Assembly: GCA_026989015.1 (NCBI GenBank)
Contig: JALSKD010000176.1
Coordinates: forward strand, 1-42,922
Length of the DNA: 42,922 bases
DNA from: Gammaproteobacteria bacterium
GTDB lineage: Bacteria > Pseudomonadota > Gammaproteobacteria > GCA-001735895
Direction of reading: 5' to 3'
Numbering within the stretch: position 1 is the first letter of the stretch; each line of letters begins with the position of its first letter. Below are positions 12,048 through 24,046 of this stretch, one piece after another. Made by a program: the position numbers and the translations under genes. The notes beneath the pieces were generated by a model. It ran no database searches. It had not been told where the DNA came from and worked only from the letters and a program-made list of their open reading frames with translations.

Positions 12048-12181
12048 GCACAGTGAACACCAGCCTCCGGGCGGGCACAAGGGAAGCCCCGAAGTTACAC
12101 TTTTGTGAGATCCCCGTGACCGGCTCGGGATCTTCCACTGCCAACATCCTCCCTGCGCAATCAACCACAGAGGATACCACC

Positions 12182-12898
12182 ATGCTCAAGAAAAACCGGC
12201 TCACCTCCATGCTGCTGGCCCAGGCCGTGGCCCTGGCCGTTCTGCCTGCCGCGGTATCGGCCGCGGAACTGGACATCCGCATCACCAATCTGACCCACGG
12301 CAACCATTTCACGCCGCTGCTGGTCGCGGCTCACGCGGAAGGCCAGCACTTGTTCCAGGTCGGCGAACCCGCCAGCAGCAGCCTGCAGGCAATGGCCGAA
12401 GGCGGCGACCTGACCGGCCTCAACACCGACCTTGCAGGCCTCAGCGCGGACATTGTCAGCAATCCGGCGGCCGGACTGCTGCCCCCCGGCCAGAGCACAC
12501 AGTTTTCGCTGAACACGGCAGACAGCAACACCCGGCTTTCCGTGGTGGCGATGATGCTGCCGACCAATGACGGTTTCGTCGGCCTCGACGCCATCGCCAT
12601 CCCCAGCGAACCCGGCACCTACAGCTGGACGCTGAATGCCTACGACGCCGGTACCGAGGCCAACAATGAAGTCATCAACGGCGCCGGCGCGCCCGGCGCG
12701 CTCGGCATTCCCGCCGATCCGCTGGGCAAGGGCGGCATGAACGCCAGCGGTGTCACCGACATGGAGGTCAACGACCGTGTGCACATCCACCCGGGTGTCG
12801 TCGGCGACAGCGACCCCACGGGCGGCATCAGCGATCTCGACAGCCGGGTGCACCGCTGGCTGAACCCGGTGGCGCGCATCGTCGTCACCGTCAACTGA
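12182..12898 (+). CDS. Exported spondin-domain protein
   Basis: The 238-residue product begins at ATG 12182 behind AGAGGA with a Sec signal peptide ending near ALPAAVSAAEL-type residues (cleavage about residue 26). The mature part fits the bacterial spondin_N family: a beta-rich domain with LTHGNHFTPLLVAAH, MMLPTNDGFVGLDA, YDAGTEANNE and HIHPGVVG. Function in bacteria is unknown; the domain is shared with animal matrix proteins. It is followed 11 bp later by a paralogous lipoprotein. Upstream frame to 12053 lacks a ribosome site and is not used. Confidence 0.85.
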   Translation: MLKKNRLTSMLLAQAVALAVLPAAVSAAELDIRITNLTHGNHFTPLLVAAHAEGQHLFQVGEPASSSLQAMAEGGDLTGLNTDLAGLSADIVSNPAAGLLPPGQSTQFSLNTADSNTRLSVVAMMLPTNDGFVGLDAIAIPSEPGTYSWTLNAYDAGTEANNEVINGAGAPGALGIPADPLGKGGMNASGVTDMEVNDRVHIHPGVVGDSDPTGGISDLDSRVHRWLNPVARIVVTVN

Positions 12899-12909
12899 GG
12901 GAGGCCGTC

Positions 12910-13590
12910 ATGAACCGTTACGATCTGTCGAAGATCCTCCCGCTGTCCGCACTGGTGGCCGCCCTGGCCCTTGCCGGATGCTCCAGCGACAACGAGGAGA
13001 TGGAGCGGCGCAGTTTTCGCATCGATCTGGTCAACCTGACCGCCAACCAGCCGATGTCCCCACCGGTGGCACTGGCCGATGACGGCAGCGCCTGGTGGAG
13101 CGATGGCAGCGCAGCCTCCGAAGCCCTCGAACATCTGGCCGAAAGCGGCGACGCCAGCGGCCTGATCAATGGCGAGGACGGGGCGGTACAGGCCGGCGGC
13201 CTGCTGCTGCCCGGCATGACCGCCAGCCTGACGGTGGCAACCGATGATGCGCAGCCGATGCTGTCGCTGGCCACCATGCTGGTCAACACCAACGATGCCT
13301 TCAGCGGACTCACGGCGGAAGATCTGAGCGATCTGCAACCCGGCGAACAGCGTGTACTGTGGCTGCCGGCGCGGGATGCCGGTACCGAAGCCAACAGCGA
13401 GAGCGCGGCCAGCATTCCCGGCCCTGCCGGTGGCGGCGAAGGCTACAATGCCGACCGCGACGATGTGACCGGCATGGTGACACTGCATCCCGGCGTGGTC
13501 GGCGTCGAGGCCGGCGCCAGCGATTCGGCGCTGGATGCGTCCCACCGTTTCGACAATCCGGTGTTGCGTGTCACCATCAGCGCGCTGTAG
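12910..13590 (+). CDS. Spondin-domain lipoprotein
   Basis: The 226-residue product is a paralogue of the preceding protein. It has a lipoprotein signal peptide with lipobox LAGC at about residues 21-24, so it is probably anchored in a membrane. It shares MLVNTNDAFSGL, DAGTEAN and LHPGVVG with its neighbour, and the overall layout of the domain. Its tight spacing (11 bp) implies one operon. A two-component system starts 58 bp downstream, after a GC-rich hairpin. Its ligand is unknown. Confidence 0.85.
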   Translation: MNRYDLSKILPLSALVAALALAGCSSDNEEMERRSFRIDLVNLTANQPMSPPVALADDGSAWWSDGSAASEALEHLAESGDASGLINGEDGAVQAGGLLLPGMTASLTVATDDAQPMLSLATMLVNTNDAFSGLTAEDLSDLQPGEQRVLWLPARDAGTEANSESAASIPGPAGGGEGYNADRDDVTGMVTLHPGVVGVEAGASDSALDASHRFDNPVLRVTISAL

Positions 13591-15870: not shown

Positions 15871-15890
15871 TTTTTTTCGCCTCCCCGGGA

Positions 15891-15910
15891 ACCTGGAGTT
15901 TGCTCCAGGT
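15891..15910 (+). promoter_or_regulatory. MerR-family operator, site 1
   Basis: ACCTGGAGTTTGCTCCAGGT is a perfect 8+8 dyad around TTTG, in MerR-family style. Aligned with site 2, the flanking hexamers would be GGAACC (15888-15893) and TCACAA (15913-15918) with a 19-bp spacer. Both are poor, so basal expression should be very low. It precedes the outer-membrane protein gene by 38 bp and is probably bound by the MerR protein at 19169. Confidence 0.75.
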
Positions 15911-15948
15911 AGTCACAACCCTCGAATACCGCATTTTCGAGGCCCGTG

Positions 15949-16755
15949 ATGAATCACACTACACGCTTTCGCACCACTTCTGTCCCTGGCCTGATCGCCC
16001 TGCTGATCAGCCTGCCCGCCGCGGCTCATGACCCCATCTTTGGCGTGGGACCTCATGTGCTGTTCAAGAACGGCATGGAGGTCGCGCTGGAGCTCGAGGC
16101 CGAATCAGCCGACAGTGACAATGAACAGGCACTGGCCGTGGACCTGGCCTGGGGCATCACCGGAGACTGGGCCGCCGGTCTCACCCTGCCCTATGTCTTT
16201 GGCGACGAAGCGGATGGCCGTGGTGACATCGCCCTGTACAGCAAATACCGCTTCTGGCGTCAGGACAGCCTGGGCCTTCAGGAATCCGCCGCCGTGTTCG
16301 CGAAATGGATTCCGGATTCCGGCGACAGCGCCGTGAGCAAGCAGGCCGATGATCTGATCCTAGGCCTGGCCTACGGTTACGAGGGCCGCAAGCGTTACCG
16401 CTGGGCCAGCCTGCGCTACCGTTTCAACGGCGAAAACGACGCAGGCATCGACCGTGGCGACAGGGTACTGCTCGATTTCGTCGCCGGCTGGCGCCCCGAT
16501 CCGCGCGGCTACCGTGAACCGGATACCGTCTGGCTGCTGGAGCTCAACGGCGAGTATGGAAAACAGGCGCGCCTCGGTGGCGCTCGCCTGCCCGATTCCG
16601 GCGGAACCGAGTGGTTCCTCTCCCCCGGCATCTTCTGGACCGAGCGCAATTTCGCGATCAAGGCCGGCGTCCAGATTCCCGTGCTCGAACGGCTGCGTGG
16701 CACACAGCTGGCGTCCGATTACCGTGCCACCATCGATTTCGAATGGCACCTCTGA
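15949..16755 (+). CDS. Outer-membrane beta-barrel protein of metal/redox cluster
   Basis: The 268-residue product has a signal peptide (LIALLISLPAAAHD, cleavage about residue 27). The mature part has many alternating amphipathic strands (for example MEVALELEAES, DIALYSKYRFW, YRWASLRYRF, AIKAGVQIPV) ending in YRATIDFEWHL, as expected of an outer-membrane barrel. It resembles the broad MetA-type transporter family often found with metal-resistance genes, but I cannot assign a substrate. The start is ATG 15949; GTG 15946 is possible. It is the first gene after MerR operator site 1 and is followed 26 bp later by the HMA protein. Confidence 0.7.
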   Translation: MNHTTRFRTTSVPGLIALLISLPAAAHDPIFGVGPHVLFKNGMEVALELEAESADSDNEQALAVDLAWGITGDWAAGLTLPYVFGDEADGRGDIALYSKYRFWRQDSLGLQESAAVFAKWIPDSGDSAVSKQADDLILGLAYGYEGRKRYRWASLRYRFNGENDAGIDRGDRVLLDFVAGWRPDPRGYREPDTVWLLELNGEYGKQARLGGARLPDSGGTEWFLSPGIFWTERNFAIKAGVQIPVLERLRGTQLASDYRATIDFEWHL

Positions 16756-16781
16756 ACCCCATCAACACACGGAGAAACGCG

Positions 16782-17099
16782 ATGAACATCATCCCCAAAA
16801 CCCGGTCCCTGATGCTGGCCACCCTGTTGCTGGGCAGCGCAATCAACCACAGCGTCCTGGCTGAATCCACGCGCTACGAGATGCGCGTCGATGGATTGGC
16901 CTGCCCCTTCTGCGCCTACGGCATCGAAAAGAAATTCAAGGCCATCGAAGGCACCCGCAACATCGATGTGGACCTGGACAAGGGCCTGGTCACGGTGGAA
17001 CTGCAAGGCCAGCGCCGGTTCACCGACGAGGAGATGAAGAAACTCTTCGCCGATTCCGGCTTTACCTTTCGCAGCATGAAAACCGAGACCCACGAGTAA
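16782..17099 (+). CDS. Periplasmic heavy-metal-associated (HMA) protein, MerP-like
   Basis: The 105-residue product has a signal peptide (LMLATLLLGSAINHSVLAES) and one HMA ferredoxin-like fold starting RYEMRVDGLACPFCAYGIEK. The metal-binding motif is C41-P-F-C44 in place of the usual GMTCxxC. The size and export match MerP, which hands Hg(II) to MerT. The Pro-Phe between the cysteines also resembles a redox CxxC, so it may be both a metal carrier and a disulfide substrate. The ribosome site is GGAGA. The MerT-like gene begins 3 bp after the stop. Confidence 0.85.
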   Translation: MNIIPKTRSLMLATLLLGSAINHSVLAESTRYEMRVDGLACPFCAYGIEKKFKAIEGTRNIDVDLDKGLVTVELQGQRRFTDEEMKKLFADSGFTFRSMKTETHE

Positions 17100-17102
17100 G
17101 GC

Positions 17103-17501
17103 ATGACTCCGAACGACGACCGTCTGAAACAGCGCGGAATCACCGTATTCACGCTGTTCACCACCAGCGGCACGCTGATCTGCTGCGCATTGCCGATCCT
17201 GCTGGTTACCCTCGGCCTGGGTTCGGCAGTGGTGGCCATGACCAGCGCCGCGCCGTTTCTGATCACACTGACCCAGTACAAGGTCTGGGTGTTCCTGTTC
17301 TCCGGGCTGATGCTGCTGATCTCCGGCTGGGTCATCCACCGGCCGGGACGACAGTGCCCGAGCGAGGCGGGACTGGGCGCGGCCTGCAGCCGCGCCGACC
17401 GCTGGAATCGCCGCATCTTCGTCGCTTCCGTGGTCATCTGGACCATCGGCTTCTTCGCCGCCTACCTGCTGCTGCCCCTGCGCAAGGGCCTGGGGCTGTG
17501 A
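17103..17501 (+). CDS. MerT-like metal transport membrane protein
   Basis: The 132-residue inner-membrane protein has three predicted helices (about 14-38, 58-78, 106-126). The first carries the vicinal pair C27-C28 in TLICCALPILLVTLGLGS, as in MerT. A cytoplasmic loop between helices 2 and 3 carries C85 and C95, again as in MerT. MerT passes Hg(II) from MerP to cytosolic MerA; no merA is present here. By analogy it may move a thiophilic metal across the inner membrane, but metal and direction are unknown. It is directly downstream of the HMA gene. The next promoter starts only 6 bp after its stop. Confidence 0.8.
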   Translation: MTPNDDRLKQRGITVFTLFTTSGTLICCALPILLVTLGLGSAVVAMTSAAPFLITLTQYKVWVFLFSGLMLLISGWVIHRPGRQCPSEAGLGAACSRADRWNRRIFVASVVIWTIGFFAAYLLLPLRKGLGL

Positions 17502-17507
17502 GCGGGC

Positions 17508-17538
17508 TTGACCTGGAGTCAACTCCAGAAGCTATACT
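17508..17538 (+). promoter_or_regulatory. MerR-family promoter with 19-bp spacer, site 2
   Basis: -35 TTGACC (17508-17513) and -10 TATACT (17533-17538) are separated by 19 bp, the overlong spacing typical of MerR-activated promoters. The spacer holds a perfect dyad, CTGGAGT-CA-ACTCCAG (17513-17528). The arms match site 1, so one regulator probably controls both. It drives the thioredoxin-CcdA-merR genes. Confidence 0.88.
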
Positions 17539-17564
17539 GCCATGAACCCATCAAGGAACGCATC

Positions 17565-17858
17565 ATGAAGATCGAAATCTTTTCATCGCCCGGCTGCGGC
17601 AAATGCGGCCATGCGCGGGACCGGCTGCAACAACTGGTGACCCAACTGGATACCGAACACCCCGGGCAGCACATCGAGTGGCGCGATGTGAACATCCTGG
17701 AGGAGATGGATTACGCGGTGGATCTGGGCGTGTTGTCGACGCCGTCACTGGCCATCGACGGCGAACTGGTATTCACCAGCCTGCCCGGCGTTCAGCGCCT
17801 GCGCCATGAAATCGAATCCCGCCTGGGCACTGAAGGCGCCAAAGGCCGGCCATGCTGA
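17565..17858 (+). CDS. Thioredoxin/glutaredoxin-like protein with CGKC motif
   Basis: The 97-residue cytoplasmic protein has a thioredoxin fold: an N-terminal strand MKIEIFSS, redox motif C11-G-K-C14 in SPGCGKCGHARDRL, and the cis-proline loop LSTPSLAIDGE. There is no signal peptide. It follows the MerR promoter by 27 bp and overlaps the CcdA-like gene by 7 bp, which suggests that it donates electrons to that membrane protein, as thioredoxin does to DsbD/CcdA. A last cysteine lies at the C-terminus (GRPC). Confidence 0.82.
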   Translation: MKIEIFSSPGCGKCGHARDRLQQLVTQLDTEHPGQHIEWRDVNILEEMDYAVDLGVLSTPSLAIDGELVFTSLPGVQRLRHEIESRLGTEGAKGRPC

Positions 17859-19162
17859 GCCTGGCGCTCGGCACCAGCGGCGTGCTCGGCTTTCTGGCGT
17901 TCTTCGAACCCTGCACCATCGCCACCCATACACTGTTCTCGGCACGCAACACGCGCGGGGAACGCGGCCGCTGTTGCCGCAACCTGTTCGCCGTGTGGCT
18001 GGCCCGTGGCCTGCTGCTGAGCCTGCTGTTCCTGCTGGCGGTGATGCTGATCGAAGCCCCTGCATGGACGCCGCTTGCGATCAGCATCGGCCTGTCGCTG
18101 ATCGCCAGCGTCTACCTGATTTCCCGCTTCGTGTACCTGCCGATCCCCCATTTTTCACTGGCGGGCCTGCTGCCTGGCGGCCACAGGCTGCCCTATGCGG
18201 TGAAGCTGGGTCTGACCCTGCCGGCCTGCACCCTGCCGCTGGTGCTGATCACCGCGGCTCTGCTGGTCTCGGTCGGTTCATTGCCGGTGGCCCTGGCTGC
18301 GGCCTGGCTGTTTGCCAGCCTGTTCACGCTGCCGATGGCGGTCGCCTCCTTCACCGGCATCGGCCCCGATGCCCGCGAGTTCCTGTCGCGCATCGCCGCC
18401 ATCACGCCATGGATCACCGCGGCACTGTTGTTCGGGGCCGCGGCCTGGCCATGGCTCGGAGCACTGGACCTGTCGGCCGAACCCCTGGCCCGGCGTCTCG
18501 GTGAAGCCGGCAGCGTCGGTCTGGGATTGGCCTTTCTCACCGGTCTGTTTTTCAGCTTCAACCCGGTCTCCTTCGCCGCCATACCGGTCATGCTGGCCTA
18601 TGTCACCCGCGCCGATCGCCCCGCCCGCGCCCGACAGATGGGCGCCGCGTTCATCTTCGGGCTGGTGCTGACCCATGTGGCGCTCGGCGTCACCGCGTCG
18701 CTGGGCGGTGGCTGGGTCAAGGGCATCATGGGCCGGCAATGGGGGCTGTTGCTCGGGCCGCTGCTGATTCTGCTGGGCTTGATGTGGGCAGGCTGGATGA
18801 AGATCCGCATGCCCTGGTTCGGCTTTCGCGGCCGCCGCGCCAGCGGTCTGTGGGGCGCATTCCTGCTCGGCATCCCCTTCTCGATCGCCGTCTGTCCCTT
18901 CTGTACGCCGGCGCTGCTGGTCACGCTGACCGCCAGTGCCGCCATTGGCTCGGCCGGATACGGCGCCCTGTTGTTGCTGGCCTTTGCACTGGGGCGCAGC
19001 CTGCCGATCCTGGCCGGCGCCTGGAGCATGAGCTGGCTCGAATCGCTGCGCGGCTTCAGCCGCCATCAACGGGGTATCGAAATCCTGTCCGGGGTCGTGC
19101 TGATACTCAGCGGACTGTATCTGCTCAACGAATATTTCTTCATCATTCCCACCGGCATGTAA
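17852..19162 (+). CDS. Tandem CcdA/DsbD-beta-like transmembrane redox protein
   Basis: The 436-residue polytopic membrane protein contains two CcdA-like halves. Half 1 (about 1-200) has FFEPCTIATH (C21) and TLPACTLPL (C126), matching the redox cysteine pair of CcdA/DsbD. Half 2 (about 220-436) starts FSFNPVSFAAIP, where Val replaces the expected cysteine, and later has C348-P-F-C351 in AVCPFCTPALLVTL. C41-C42 lie in a basic loop. Such proteins carry electrons from cytosolic thioredoxin to periplasmic thiols. The gene is translationally coupled to the CGKC thioredoxin and ends 6 bp before merR. Confidence 0.8.
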   Translation: MLSLALGTSGVLGFLAFFEPCTIATHTLFSARNTRGERGRCCRNLFAVWLARGLLLSLLFLLAVMLIEAPAWTPLAISIGLSLIASVYLISRFVYLPIPHFSLAGLLPGGHRLPYAVKLGLTLPACTLPLVLITAALLVSVGSLPVALAAAWLFASLFTLPMAVASFTGIGPDAREFLSRIAAITPWITAALLFGAAAWPWLGALDLSAEPLARRLGEAGSVGLGLAFLTGLFFSFNPVSFAAIPVMLAYVTRADRPARARQMGAAFIFGLVLTHVALGVTASLGGGWVKGIMGRQWGLLLGPLLILLGLMWAGWMKIRMPWFGFRGRRASGLWGAFLLGIPFSIAVCPFCTPALLVTLTASAAIGSAGYGALLLLAFALGRSLPILAGAWSMSWLESLRGFSRHQRGIEILSGVVLILSGLYLLNEYFFIIPTGM

Positions 19163-19168
19163 CCCGCC

Positions 19169-19636
19169 ATGACCGATACCCACACCGACCTCGATCAGCC
19201 CCGATACAGCATCGGCGACATCGCCGGCAAGACCGGCCTCAGCGCCGATACGCTGCGCTACTACGAAAAGATCGGGCTGCTCGTGGATGTCCCCCGCAAC
19301 ACCGGCGGGCGGCGTATGTATCGGGAACGCGATCTGTCGCGGCTGCGCTTCATCACGCGGGCTCAGAAGATGAATTTCACGCTTGCAGAGATCGGCGCGC
19401 TGTTGCAGATGCGGGAAGATCCGCAGCATGCCCGGGAAGACATCCGCCGCATGACCCGGAACAAGCTGCAGCAGGTGGAATCACACATGGAAGAACTGGG
19501 CAAGCTGCGCACCGAGCTGACGCTGCTGCTCAATCTGTGCCGCGGCGCCGAGGACGGCTGCCCCATCATCGAGGGGCTGGAAGAGCCGGTTACTGCACCC
19601 GGTAACCGTCGTGACAGGCCACGCACTGGGCGGTGA
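19169..19636 (+). CDS. MerR-family metal-responsive regulator
   Basis: The 155-residue protein has a MerR winged helix (RYSIGDIAGKTGLSADTLRYYEKIGLL), a dimerisation helix (about 85-120) and a C-terminal metal loop C124-x6-C131-P-I-I. In CueR the residue before this helix is Ser77; in MerR and ZntR a Cys sits there. Alignment of DPQHAREDIRR here puts Arg at that place, so the sensing chemistry may differ. It is the last gene of the cluster and so probably autoregulated from site 2. The last 47 bp overlap the convergent cytochrome gene, and the tail beyond residue 140 is basic and unusual. Confidence 0.88.
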   Translation: MTDTHTDLDQPRYSIGDIAGKTGLSADTLRYYEKIGLLVDVPRNTGGRRMYRERDLSRLRFITRAQKMNFTLAEIGALLQMREDPQHAREDIRRMTRNKLQQVESHMEELGKLRTELTLLLNLCRGAEDGCPIIEGLEEPVTAPGNRRDRPRTGR

Positions 19637-20084
19637 CATCGGCCAGGGCGCTGAGCGCCGCGCTGACATTGCCATTGACCGCCGCATCCCGTGCGGCCAG
19701 CGCGAAACGGCTGGCCGCCTTGTGCATGCCGGTGCCGATCTCGGCCATGCGCTTGGGCATGTAGGGTCCGATGCGGCTTGCACCGTGCAGTTGCAGCGAC
19801 TGCAGACCCAGCCGCTGCTCCGCAAGATCGGCCGCTTCCTCGAACCGCCCCGATCCCAGCAGACCGTGGAGCCGGTTCAGGGTCTTGAGGTGATCGCGCA
19901 TGTTCGCCAGCATGTGGGCGCGCAGGGCTTCAGGCACCTTGACCCACTGCCGTTCATCGCTCATCGGCGCAGTCACGGCTTCCGCGTTCATGCGCTCGTG
20001 GTGCATCGGTGTGTGCTGCTGCGAGTGAGCGATCACGGGCAGCAGCATGAGCATGAGTCCTGCGGGCACACAACGGGTGTTCAT
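19590..20084 (-). CDS. Cytochrome c'-like monoheme protein
   Basis: The 164-residue product has a signal peptide (LMLMLLPVIAHSQQ) and a single heme-binding motif C154-V-A-C157-H158 six residues from the C-terminus, the position typical of cytochrome c' and c-556 four-helix bundles. The middle is helical and rich in Ala, Leu and Met. Family members bind NO or transfer electrons in the periplasm; the role here is not known. It is convergent with merR and shares 47 bp with it. The N-terminal His/Met-rich segment (QQHTPMHHERMN) is unusual and could bind metal, though this is speculative. Confidence 0.78.
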   Translation of the reverse strand: MNTRCVPAGLMLMLLPVIAHSQQHTPMHHERMNAEAVTAPMSDERQWVKVPEALRAHMLANMRDHLKTLNRLHGLLGSGRFEEAADLAEQRLGLQSLQLHGASRIGPYMPKRMAEIGTGMHKAASRFALAARDAAVNGNVSAALSALADVTAQCVACHDGYRVQ

Positions 20085-22314: not shown

Positions 22315-23524
22315 GGATCAAGCGTTCATCCGGGTCGAGGCGTTGTACAAGGTCTTCGGTCCCGATCCCCGGAAGGTGATGCCGCAGGTACACCAGGGCA
22401 TGGACAAGGACCGCCTGCTGCGTGAAACCGGCCACGCCCTGGGACTCAAGGACATCAACCTGAGCATCGATCAGGGCCGCATCTTCGTCATCATGGGCCT
22501 GTCCGGCTCCGGCAAATCGACACTGATTCGCCACTTCAACCGACTGATCGAACCCACGGAGGGGCGCATCCTCATCGATGGCATCGATGTGCGCTCCCTC
22601 AACGAGAAACAGTTGCTGGCTTTTCGTCGGCAGCGGATCGCCATGGTCTTCCAGCGTTTCGGACTGATGCCGCACCGGACGGTCATCGAGAATGTGGCCT
22701 ACGGCCTGCAGGTTCAGGGCATGCCCAGAGCCCAGCGCTTGCAGAAGGCCCGAGAATGGATCGATACCGTCGGCCTCTCCGGATACGAACAGCAGTACCC
22801 ATCCCAGCTCTCCGGCGGCCAGCAGCAGCGTGTGGGACTGGCGCGTGCATTGTGCACCGATGCAGACATCCTGCTGATGGACGAAGCCTTCTCCGCCCTC
22901 GACCCGCTGATCCGCAGCGAGATGCAGGATCAACTGATTGAGCTGCAGGAACGCCTGCACAAGACCATCATCTTCATTACCCACGACCTGGACGAAGCCC
23001 TGCGTCTCGGCGACCGCATCGCGATCCTGCGCGACGGCGAACTGGTGCAGGAAGGTGCTCCGGAAGAGATTCTTCTGCACCCGGCCGACGACTATGTCGA
23101 GGCCTTCGTCAAGGATGTCAACCGGGCGCGGGCGCTGACCGTGGAGACGGTGATGAAACCGCCCGCCTGCCGCATCACCGCGGACACCGTCGAAGGCGCA
23201 TTGCGGCAGATGCACGACAGCACCGGCCGCTATGGCTACTACATCACCGAACAGGGCTACCAGGGCATGATCGACCGCAGCGCGCTGGAACAGGCCGCCA
23301 GCCAGGACGCCTCCCGCTCCGCCAATGAGGTGGTGGAAGAGATTCCGGGTGTACGCCCGGACGCGCTGATCGAGGAAGTCCTGCCCGACACCCTGGACGC
23401 CCACCACCCGCTGCCCGTGGTCGACGCCTCCGGTCAGTTGCAAGGCGAGCTGTCGCGCGCCTCCTTGGCCGAGGCACTGGTCACCGGTGGCGACGAACCC
23501 GATAGCGAGCCAACCCGGCACTGA
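22304..23524 (+). CDS. proV: Glycine betaine/proline ABC transporter, ATPase
   Basis: The 406-residue ATPase starts at ATG 22304 inside the end of proW. It has the ProV-type N-terminus (YKVFG, then the KDINLSIDQG strand), Walker A GLSGSGKST, Q-loop, signature LSGGQQQR, Walker B ILLMDEAFSALDP and H-loop ITHD. A C-terminal regulatory region (about 275-395) has the CBS-like pattern found in ProV/OpuAA, which senses ionic strength or nucleotides. E. coli ProV is about 400 residues. The tRNA-linked repeat array begins 18 bp after the stop. Confidence 0.94.
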   Translation: MANKDQAFIRVEALYKVFGPDPRKVMPQVHQGMDKDRLLRETGHALGLKDINLSIDQGRIFVIMGLSGSGKSTLIRHFNRLIEPTEGRILIDGIDVRSLNEKQLLAFRRQRIAMVFQRFGLMPHRTVIENVAYGLQVQGMPRAQRLQKAREWIDTVGLSGYEQQYPSQLSGGQQQRVGLARALCTDADILLMDEAFSALDPLIRSEMQDQLIELQERLHKTIIFITHDLDEALRLGDRIAILRDGELVQEGAPEEILLHPADDYVEAFVKDVNRARALTVETVMKPPACRITADTVEGALRQMHDSTGRYGYYITEQGYQGMIDRSALEQAASQDASRSANEVVEEIPGVRPDALIEEVLPDTLDAHHPLPVVDASGQLQGELSRASLAEALVTGGDEPDSEPTRH

Positions 23525-23542
23525 ATCACTGGAAACGCGATC

Positions 23543-23572
23543 AAAAACCCGGGCAGTCGAACCGTCCGGGTT
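23543..23572 (-). terminator. Distal terminator-like hairpin of tRNA-linked array
   Basis: On the minus strand an imperfect ACCCGGACGG/CTGCCCGGGT stem with a TTCGA loop is followed by five Ts. It is the third in a series of near-identical hairpins and the most diverged. Confidence 0.6.
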
Positions 23573-23573
23573 C

Positions 23574-23752
23574 AATAATGGCGGAGAGCGAGGGATGACT
23601 CGGCGCTTCCCTGAGCCTCGCCCTTCGGGTTCGCTGCGCTCATGCCGCATCGCTCCCGGCGATGCGGTCAAACCCTCTGTCGGGTTCGAACCCCTCGCAA
23701 ACGATTCGTGGCGGCAACGAAAAAAACCCGGGCAGTCGAACTGTCCGGGTTC
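23574..23752 (-). repeat. tRNA-linked tandem repeat, unit 2 (179 bp, distal)
   Basis: This unit is a full copy of 23753-23931 with three differences that I could count. Read in the tRNA direction it holds a terminator-like hairpin, a T-arm-like GGGTTCGAACCC palindrome (23682-23693), an 8-bp hairpin CCGCATCG/CGATGCGG (23645-23667), and the last 18 nt of tRNA-Ser including CCA. Confidence 0.95.
23720..23751 (-). terminator. Middle terminator of tRNA-linked array
   Basis: On the minus strand the stem AACCCGGACAG/CTGCCCGGGTT has one A-C mismatch, a TTCGA loop and seven Ts. Confidence 0.75.
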
Positions 23753-23931
23753 AATAATGGCGGAGAGCGAGGGATGACTCGGCGCTTCCCTGCGCCTCGC
23801 CCTCCGGGTTCGCTGCGCTCATGCCGCATCGCTCCCGGCGATGCGGTCAAACCCTCTGTCGGGTTCGAACCCCTCGCAAACGATTCGTGGCGGCAACGAA
23901 AAAAACCCGGACAGTCGAACTGTCCGGGTTC
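23753..23931 (-). repeat. tRNA-linked tandem repeat, unit 1 (179 bp, proximal)
   Basis: This unit abuts the tRNA-Ser 3' end and is nearly identical to unit 2. The exact period is 179 bp, measured between AATAATGG at 23574, 23753 and 23932. Its distal end repeats the tRNA 3' segment (TGGCGGAGAGCGAGGGAT on plus at 23758-23775), after which it diverges from the real tRNA. Confidence 0.95.
23899..23930 (-). terminator. Proximal Rho-independent terminator of tRNA-Ser
   Basis: On the minus strand a perfect 11-bp stem AACCCGGACAG/CTGTCCGGGTT with a TTCGA loop is followed by seven Ts, starting 7 nt past the tRNA CCA. It should terminate the csrA-tRNA transcript. Confidence 0.93.
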
Positions 23932-23936
23932 AATAA

Positions 23937-24027
23937 TGGCGGAGAGCGAGGGATTCGAACCCTCGATACGCTATCAACGTATACACCCTTAGCAGGGGTG
24001 CGCCTTCAGCCACTCGGCCAGCTCTCC
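23937..24027 (-). tRNA. serV: tRNA-Ser(GCU)
   Basis: The 91-nt minus-strand RNA has the acceptor GGAGAGC paired with GCTCTCC, discriminator G and an encoded CCA (23939-23937). The anticodon loop is CTGCTAA with anticodon GCT, for AGC/AGU codons. There is a long variable arm (class II tRNA) and a T-arm CGAGGGTTCGAATCCCTCG. The gene begins 19 bp after csrA stops, so it is probably cotranscribed with csrA; the same adjacency occurs in pseudomonads. Downstream are repeats derived from its own 3' end. Confidence 0.97.
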
Positions 24028-24046
24028 TGATGTGTTGCGGTTGCTC

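Follow-up and report, generated by a model that had tools for sequence, protein, structure and literature searches.

A conserved cluster of six genes in a gammaproteobacterial genome is likely to assist in capturing mercury, or another metal with a similar affinity for thiols, from the cell envelope. Of its two metal-controlled switches, one seems by its sequence to be suited to the envelope-stress machinery. The cluster lies in a stretch of 42,922 nucleotides (the window), positions 1–42,922 of contig JALSKD010000176.1. The genes for an outer-membrane barrel, an HMA protein, a MerT-like protein, a thioredoxin, a large membrane protein and a MerR regulator run in one direction at 15946–19636 of the forward strand (Table 1). 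An initial annotation had listed six same-direction genes, a CPFC motif in the HMA protein, a CC pair plus two loop cysteines in the MerT-like protein and a CGKC thioredoxin; these points were all confirmed in the sequence.

Table 1. Features of the cluster and of its two promoter/operator regions in the window.
Feature	Coordinates	Strand	Evidence
Class B promoter/operator: GGAACC, dyad CTGGAGTTTGCTCCAG (15893–15908), GTCACA (15912–15917); RpoE-like elements, 19-bp spacer	15888..15917	+	
Outer-membrane barrel, signal peptide followed by 12 predicted strands	15946..16755	+	Structure prediction, Foldseek, conservation
Periplasmic MerP-like HMA protein, RVDGLACPFCAYGIEKK	16782..17099	+	PF00403 above cut-off
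MerT-like membrane protein, CC in first helix and two loop cysteines (C85, C95)	17103..17501	+	PF02411 below cut-off
Class A promoter/operator: TTGACC, dyad CTGGAGTCAACTCCAG (17513–17528), TATACT; 19-bp spacer, classical MerR-type	17508..17538	+	
Small cytosolic thioredoxin-fold protein, SPGCGKCGHA (CxxC)	17565..17858	+	PF13192 above cut-off
Large membrane protein (436 aa), CcdA/DsbD_TM-like C-half with C348-P-F-C351	17852..19162	+	PF02683, CcdA 5vkv
MerR-family regulator, C-x6-C metal loop, no helix cysteine	19169..19636	+	ZntR/CueR/MerR models

The start codon of the barrel is either GTG 15946 or ATG 15949. Its predicted structure (pLDDT 84.8, pTM 0.78) was matched by Foldseek to FapF (PDB code 5o68) and to the COG4313 outer-membrane channel (PDB code 4rl8), with TM values of about 0.67. 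The cluster barrel shares the predicted 12-strand architecture with these proteins but is only 11–14% identical to them, and no match was found by profile search of Pfam and NCBIfam. A plasmid search for barrel relatives at E 1e-5 also found none. The HMA protein has a signal-like N-terminus and the motif C41-P-F-C44, which was conserved as CP[FY]C in its relatives. The four cysteines of the MerT-like protein were kept in 13 of 14 sequences, while the divergent cluster L062 clearly retained only the CC pair. Both proteins scored below the cut-offs of the mercury transport families: the HMA protein reached 22 bits against TIGR02052 (MerP), far under the cut-off of 92.6, and was matched best by CopZ models, and the MerT-like protein reached 18.8 bits against PF02411 (cut-off 32.9), with no match in the NCBIfam search.

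The conservation of the cluster was established by sequence comparison. The large membrane protein was carried by 24 of 369 Gammaproteobacteria genomes, usually with the remaining cluster genes around it, and in a phylum-wide draw it was found in 2 of 398 genomes at E <= 1e-40, one of which was the window's own. The cluster genes occurred together across many Gammaproteobacteria families, in which the dyad kept its positions upstream of the corresponding operons; the possibility, raised in the initial annotation, that the genes do not travel together was thus not borne out. Related regulator–thioredoxin–CcdA modules were present on named plasmids, followed by MerT/MerP in Afipia and Nitrobacter and located beside complete mer operons in Cupriavidus metallidurans and Paraburkholderia. 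The short homologues L036 and L038 have in-frame TGA codons, which suggested selenocysteine, but judged by their coordinates these codons precede the likely start codon.

The window itself contained no merA. A merA gene scoring 563 bits (cut-off 454) was present on another contig of the genome, in a canonical merTP/merRA locus with merR, merT and merP beside it. In seven relatives merA was physically close to the cluster (L006, L046, L049, L054, L057, L113 and L115), and in several the adjoining locus was a complete mer operon. The description of a mercury system without merA was therefore not supported. Among the 369 Gammaproteobacteria genomes, MerA was found in 19 of 24 carriers and in 54 of 345 non-carriers (p = 1e-10); counted by family in a hand tally, the numbers were 15 of 20 and 37 of 162 (p = 6e-6). 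The arsenic pump ACR3, used as a control, was similarly frequent in both groups (8/24 carriers and 122/345 others, p = 1). Since merA both adjoins and co-occurs with the cluster, the thiophilic-metal link proposed earlier was supported, specifically for mercury. MerA over the cut-off was not found in five carriers (G147, G158, G166, G218 and G220), which counts against a role in mercury handling, as do the low MerP and MerT scores.

The cluster resembles the mer operon (MerP, MerT, MerA) in its periplasmic HMA protein, its three-helix CC protein with loop cysteines, its MerR control and the presence of merA in the genome or adjoining. It differs in the addition of the outer-membrane barrel, the thioredoxin and the CcdA/ArsG-type protein, and in a distinct MerR and operator, besides the low MerP and MerT scores. 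A merA-less merPTR cluster with merA elsewhere in the genome, merP1T1R5 of Pseudomonas pseudoalcaligenes CECT 5344, is induced by mercury (PMC10433974); the passages on it name no barrel, thioredoxin or CcdA protein.

From these sequence features, the reading that we favour, with moderate confidence, is an accessory module under MerR control that handles mercury or a related thiophilic metal and is made of two operons (barrel–HMA–MerT and thioredoxin–membrane protein–MerR). For the metal, the direction of transport and the flow of electrons we infer the following order. The barrel would allow passage of the metal or of metal–thiol complexes across the outer membrane. In the periplasm the HMA protein would capture the metal, which the MerT-like protein would then hand inward. 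The thioredoxin and the CcdA/ArsG-type protein would support this route: they would either provide envelope cysteines with electrons or move metal–thiolates. Where MerA is encoded, elsewhere in this genome and adjoining in several relatives, the route would probably end with it. The cluster MerR would act on two promoters, one of sigma70 type in front of the second operon and one of RpoE type in front of the first.

Both promoters contain an exact CTGGAG/CTCCAG dyad. Sites matching CTGGAGNNNNCTCCAG were found just twice in the whole 2.9-Mb genome, both at the cluster, and the reversed-pattern control gave none. The shared dyad of the initial annotation was thus confirmed, but the two promoters were of different types, sigma70-like and RpoE-like. 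Class A sites (n = 26 including the window's) followed the sigma70-like consensus TTGACC-N19-TANNCT across relatives, with the dyad within the 19-bp spacer between the -35 and -10 elements, as in the ZntR, CueR and MerR promoters; elongated spacers of 19–20 bp mark MerR-type regulated promoters. Class B sites (n = 14 including the window's), in which the dyad lies between RpoE-like elements and which set the cluster apart from those promoters, followed the pattern GGAACC-N19-TCANA. GAAC preceded and GTC followed the dyad in all 14, and also in 8/8 of those found without requiring the flanks. In these eight the two elements kept a constant, asymmetric distance and pointed to the genes downstream, whereas the position of the dyad centre varied. 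Six of 10 genomes had the same GAAC/GTC elements ahead of rpoE, with an N17 spacer; upstream of rpoE in the window's own genome they were not found.

MerR regulators activate transcription by twisting an over-long sigma70 promoter. The 2-bp excess of class B over the rpoE promoters fits the expectation for a MerR-type promoter. Because both classes have N19 and the rpoE promoters N17, the comparison points to a MerR-type switch acting on a sigmaE (RpoE-like) promoter. As to sigma factor use, we infer tentatively, at somewhat below even odds, that MerR may activate or gate an RpoE-dependent promoter by the same spacer-shortening distortion of DNA as on a sigma70 promoter. Production of the outer-membrane part of the mercury-linked system would then require metal and envelope stress at the same time. 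The class B sites may also be mere MerR binding sites, serving repression or autoregulation, with flanks that are not an RpoE promoter. This explanation has a considerable chance of being correct, as the promoter assignment is based on sequence elements and in several copies a class A promoter lies about 60–75 bp away. Against it stand the invariance of GAAC/GTC in the unbiased sites, their fixed spacing and orientation, and the use of the same elements by rpoE promoters of the same genomes.

The two halves of the large membrane protein were dissimilar. PF02683 (DsbD_TM) matched only the C-half, with 45.3 bits against a cut-off of 27.1, and a profile of residues 223–432 matched CcdA (PDB code 5vkv) with E 6.5e-7. 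When the whole model was searched against the PDB, CcdA ranked top, but no hit reached E <= 0.001. The N-half, with two invariant cysteines, C21 and C126, had no Pfam family match and no detectable CcdA homology. An internal duplication was not supported: the profile alignment of the halves was an offset 68-column match with a probability of 27%, so a tandem CcdA, as first annotated, was not shown, and the CcdA assignment held for the C-half. In the C-half, TM4 carried the CPxC motif, while the TM1 cysteine of the CcdA/DsbD pair was replaced in all 32 aligned sequences (FSFNP-type motif).

In the initial annotation, a chain of thioredoxin and CcdA-type protein was proposed to maintain the periplasmic HMA cysteines in the reduced state. 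In this redox version, electrons from the thioredoxin would pass through the CcdA-type protein to the HMA CxxC, and to other envelope thiols as well, making them able to bind metal. The co-transcription of a cytosolic CxxC thioredoxin with a DsbD_TM protein, the invariant cysteines of the N-half together with the CPxC of the C-half, and CcdA as the closest solved structure are consistent with this proposal, and the C-half fold and thioredoxin partner are shared with the CcdA, DsbD and ScsB envelope thiol systems. However, the cluster lacks their periplasmic thioredoxin domain, the TM1 cysteine on which classical CcdA chemistry depends is missing from its C-half, and its extra N-half is without detectable CcdA homology; L062 and the plasmid modules retain the C-half alone. 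The resemblance to ArsG-type permeases was equally good, and the proposal is somewhat doubtful.

ArsE/ArsG, in organoarsenical resistance, is a proposed permease of DsbD_TM type with a thioredoxin-like helper. By analogy, the CcdA/ArsG-type protein of the cluster might itself move the metal or a metal–thiol adduct, with the thioredoxin as helper. Among curated models, ArsG (NF040495) matched the C-half best (E 4e-16), and the thioredoxin, whose solved relative is 1fo5, matched TIGR00411 and TIGR00412 (ArsE-like), both below cut-off. The CPxC lies within a membrane helix, and an MFS transporter or P-type ATPase adjoins the plasmid copies. The C-half nevertheless scored only 59 bits, far under the ArsG cut-off of 200, and the partners and regulator differ from those of ArsE/ArsG. 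Direct permease activity is less likely than not.

The MerR regulator was matched best by ZntR, CueR and MerR models, each under its equivalog cut-off. The helix cysteine, a feature of Hg/Zn/Cd-type MerR proteins, was absent from the window protein and its 20 aligned relatives, leaving it without the third metal-binding cysteine typical of Hg(II)-type MerR, and the C-x6-C loop was present in all except the divergent L062. In our alignment, Arg occupied the CueR Ser77 position. The two-cysteine loop is closer to that of CueR-type monovalent-metal sensors, which speaks against mercury and, with the CopZ matches of the HMA protein, for copper, silver or gold. Large ORFs resembling RND pumps and P-type ATPases, among other metal-type genes, also lie near some copies; family search confirmed one, a proton-type P-ATPase. 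These metals are less probable than mercury, given the strong and specific association with merA and the mer pattern of the HMA/MerT pair.

In a literature search restricted mostly to papers outside subscription, and hence weak evidence of absence, neither a MerR operator within an RpoE promoter nor the combination of merT, CcdA, thioredoxin and a mer operon was found. The favoured accessory module is a recurrent unit that is annotated only piecemeal in databases, and it would carry the mer paradigm further out, as far as the outer membrane and envelope thiol chemistry. If the same operator works in an RpoE promoter, the MerR mechanism would be independent of the sigma factor, and metal sensing and envelope stress could be combined in a single promoter.

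All six genes were located where the initial annotation had placed them and were arranged in two operons. The barrel of the first operon had no match in family searches, but was predicted with good confidence to be 12-stranded, with FapF and the COG4313 channel as the nearest known structures. The family searches found an HMA domain above the cut-off in the HMA protein, a weak MerT match in the MerT-like protein, and Thioredoxin_3, DsbD_TM and MerR domains in the proteins of the second operon. The CP[FY]C motif of the HMA protein and the four cysteines of the MerT-like protein were retained in nearly all copies among relatives.

Coordinates of the operons and other features in the window and in cluster loci of relatives (L-numbers)
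Locus	Positions	Feature	Remarks
Window	15946-17501	Operon barrel-HMA-MerT	
Window	17565-19636	Operon thioredoxin-membrane protein-MerR	Thioredoxin and membrane protein genes overlap
Window	19590-20084 (-)	Cytochrome c'-like gene	PF01322, slightly under cut-off; convergent, 3' end within merR 3' end
Window	12053-13590	Two neighbouring spondin-domain proteins (NF038123), then two-component system	Two-component system ends directly ahead of class B promoter
Window	23487-24030	Apparent tandem repeat (near-identical ORFs)	Adjoins tRNA-Ser gene (23937-24027)
L002	7301-8248	MBL-fold insert in cluster	Resembles SoxH-like quinoprotein relay metallohydrolase
L053	8720-9670	MBL-fold insert	As L002
L044	4951-5880	MBL-fold insert	As L002
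L060	6833-11071	Variant: single-domain CcdA, large P-type-ATPase-grouped ORF, thioredoxin	One class A operator upstream
L116	3999-6289	Additional smaller operon of HMA, second-barrel and NHL propeller genes	MerT absent; class B site upstream

The 436-residue membrane protein, initially described as a tandem CcdA-like protein, matched CcdA in its C-half only (residues about 223-432). The N-half had no detectable family, and profile comparison of the halves gave no convincing internal duplication. In the C-half, FSFNP replaced the Cys-containing motif of CcdA in TM1, and C348-P-x-C351 in TM4 was invariant, as were C21 and C126 of the N-half. A redox role and a permease role appear about equally likely for the thioredoxin and membrane protein pair. 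The window MerR lacked the helix Cys and had a conserved C-x6-C loop. As in CueR, a two-Cys loop without the helix Cys points to a monovalent or two-coordinate metal; this analogy argues for such a ligand, with Cu(I), Ag(I), Au(I), linear Hg(II) and methylmercury all possible.

Relatives of the membrane protein (E <= 1e-30) were found in 24 of 369 Gammaproteobacteria (carriers), the majority full length with 55-63% identity, and were rare in a phylum-wide genome draw. The genes travel together: barrel, HMA, MerT, thioredoxin and MerR recurred around it in many genomes with their order kept. Some clusters also had a second barrel or HMA gene, or encoded an MBL-fold protein, an NHL propeller or a DsrE protein. 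Plasmid-borne relatives were shorter and matched the C-half only. They lay in regulator-thioredoxin-CcdA units, which were followed by MerT and MerP genes on Afipia pOC167 and Nitrobacter hamburgensis plasmid 2, and adjoined complete mer loci on Cupriavidus metallidurans and Paraburkholderia fungorum plasmids. Unlike the window MerR, the regulators of these units carried two adjacent cysteines (CC) in the helix, and their Cys loop was longer.

The cluster had been described as lacking merA, but the organism encodes MerA on another contig, C105 (563 bits; cut-off 454). This mer locus had its own merR upstream of merA, with merT and merP divergent. The CTGGAG dyad was not found there in a whole-genome search, and therefore the two loci are probably under different regulators. 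Among relatives, a mer operon including merA lay no more than a few kilobases from the cluster in L006, L046, L049, L054, L057, L113 and L115. With phylogeny not fully corrected for, MerA exceeded the cut-off in 19/24 carriers and 54/345 non-carriers (Fisher p = 1e-10), or 15/20 and 37/162 by family (hand tally from genome listings; p = 6e-6), whereas the arsenite pump ACR3, the control for metal-rich habitats, showed no association (8/24 and 122/345; p = 1).

The dyad CTGGAGNNNNCTCCAG occurred in two exact copies in the 2.9-Mb genome, both at the cluster, and the reversed control pattern in none. Comparison of the relatives' loci separated all dyads close to clusters into two classes. Class A (n = 26; CTTGACC-TGGAG-N4-CTCCA-N5-TANNCT, 19-bp spacer) is, judged by its sequence, a classical MerR promoter. 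Class B (n = 14) read [GT]GAACC-TGGAG-N4-CTCCA-N4-GTC. Six of the 14 sites give no evidence for the GAAC and GTC letters because they came from a search pattern that required them; both elements were present in 8/8 sites retrieved by the dyad alone. GTC was found at this position in 0/26 class A sites and 0/11 dyads outside both classes. The class B pattern gave 12 sites in 11/369 genomes, and its reversed control none. The sites were directed at the downstream genes, nearly all barrel or second-barrel operons; exceptions were L046 (ahead of MerT), L056 (ahead of thioredoxin) and L116 (ahead of an HMA gene, with the second barrel next).

GAAC and GTC are hallmark elements of RpoE promoters. 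Upstream of rpoE in 10 of these genomes, used as a yardstick, they were spaced by exactly N17 in six; in the window's own genome rpoE was present and no such promoter was seen upstream of it. The class B spacing was N19, the same 2-bp excess as in MerR-type sigma70 promoters. A MerR-RpoE promoter combination is possible, and we infer from these motifs that MerR would act on two holoenzymes. Alternatively, the class B sites may be mere MerR binding sites. No precedent for a MerR-RpoE promoter was found in the open-access library searched, which omits most subscription papers.

The individual parts are of known kinds, and their assembly is a new variant tied to mer. The sequences establish the gene layout, its conservation, the operators and the link with merA, and the metal, its direction of movement, the electron flow and the sigma factor are inferred from them. 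On the favoured reading, the cluster would carry mercury, or a metal like it, from the envelope into the cytosol and act upstream of MerA in genomes that have it.
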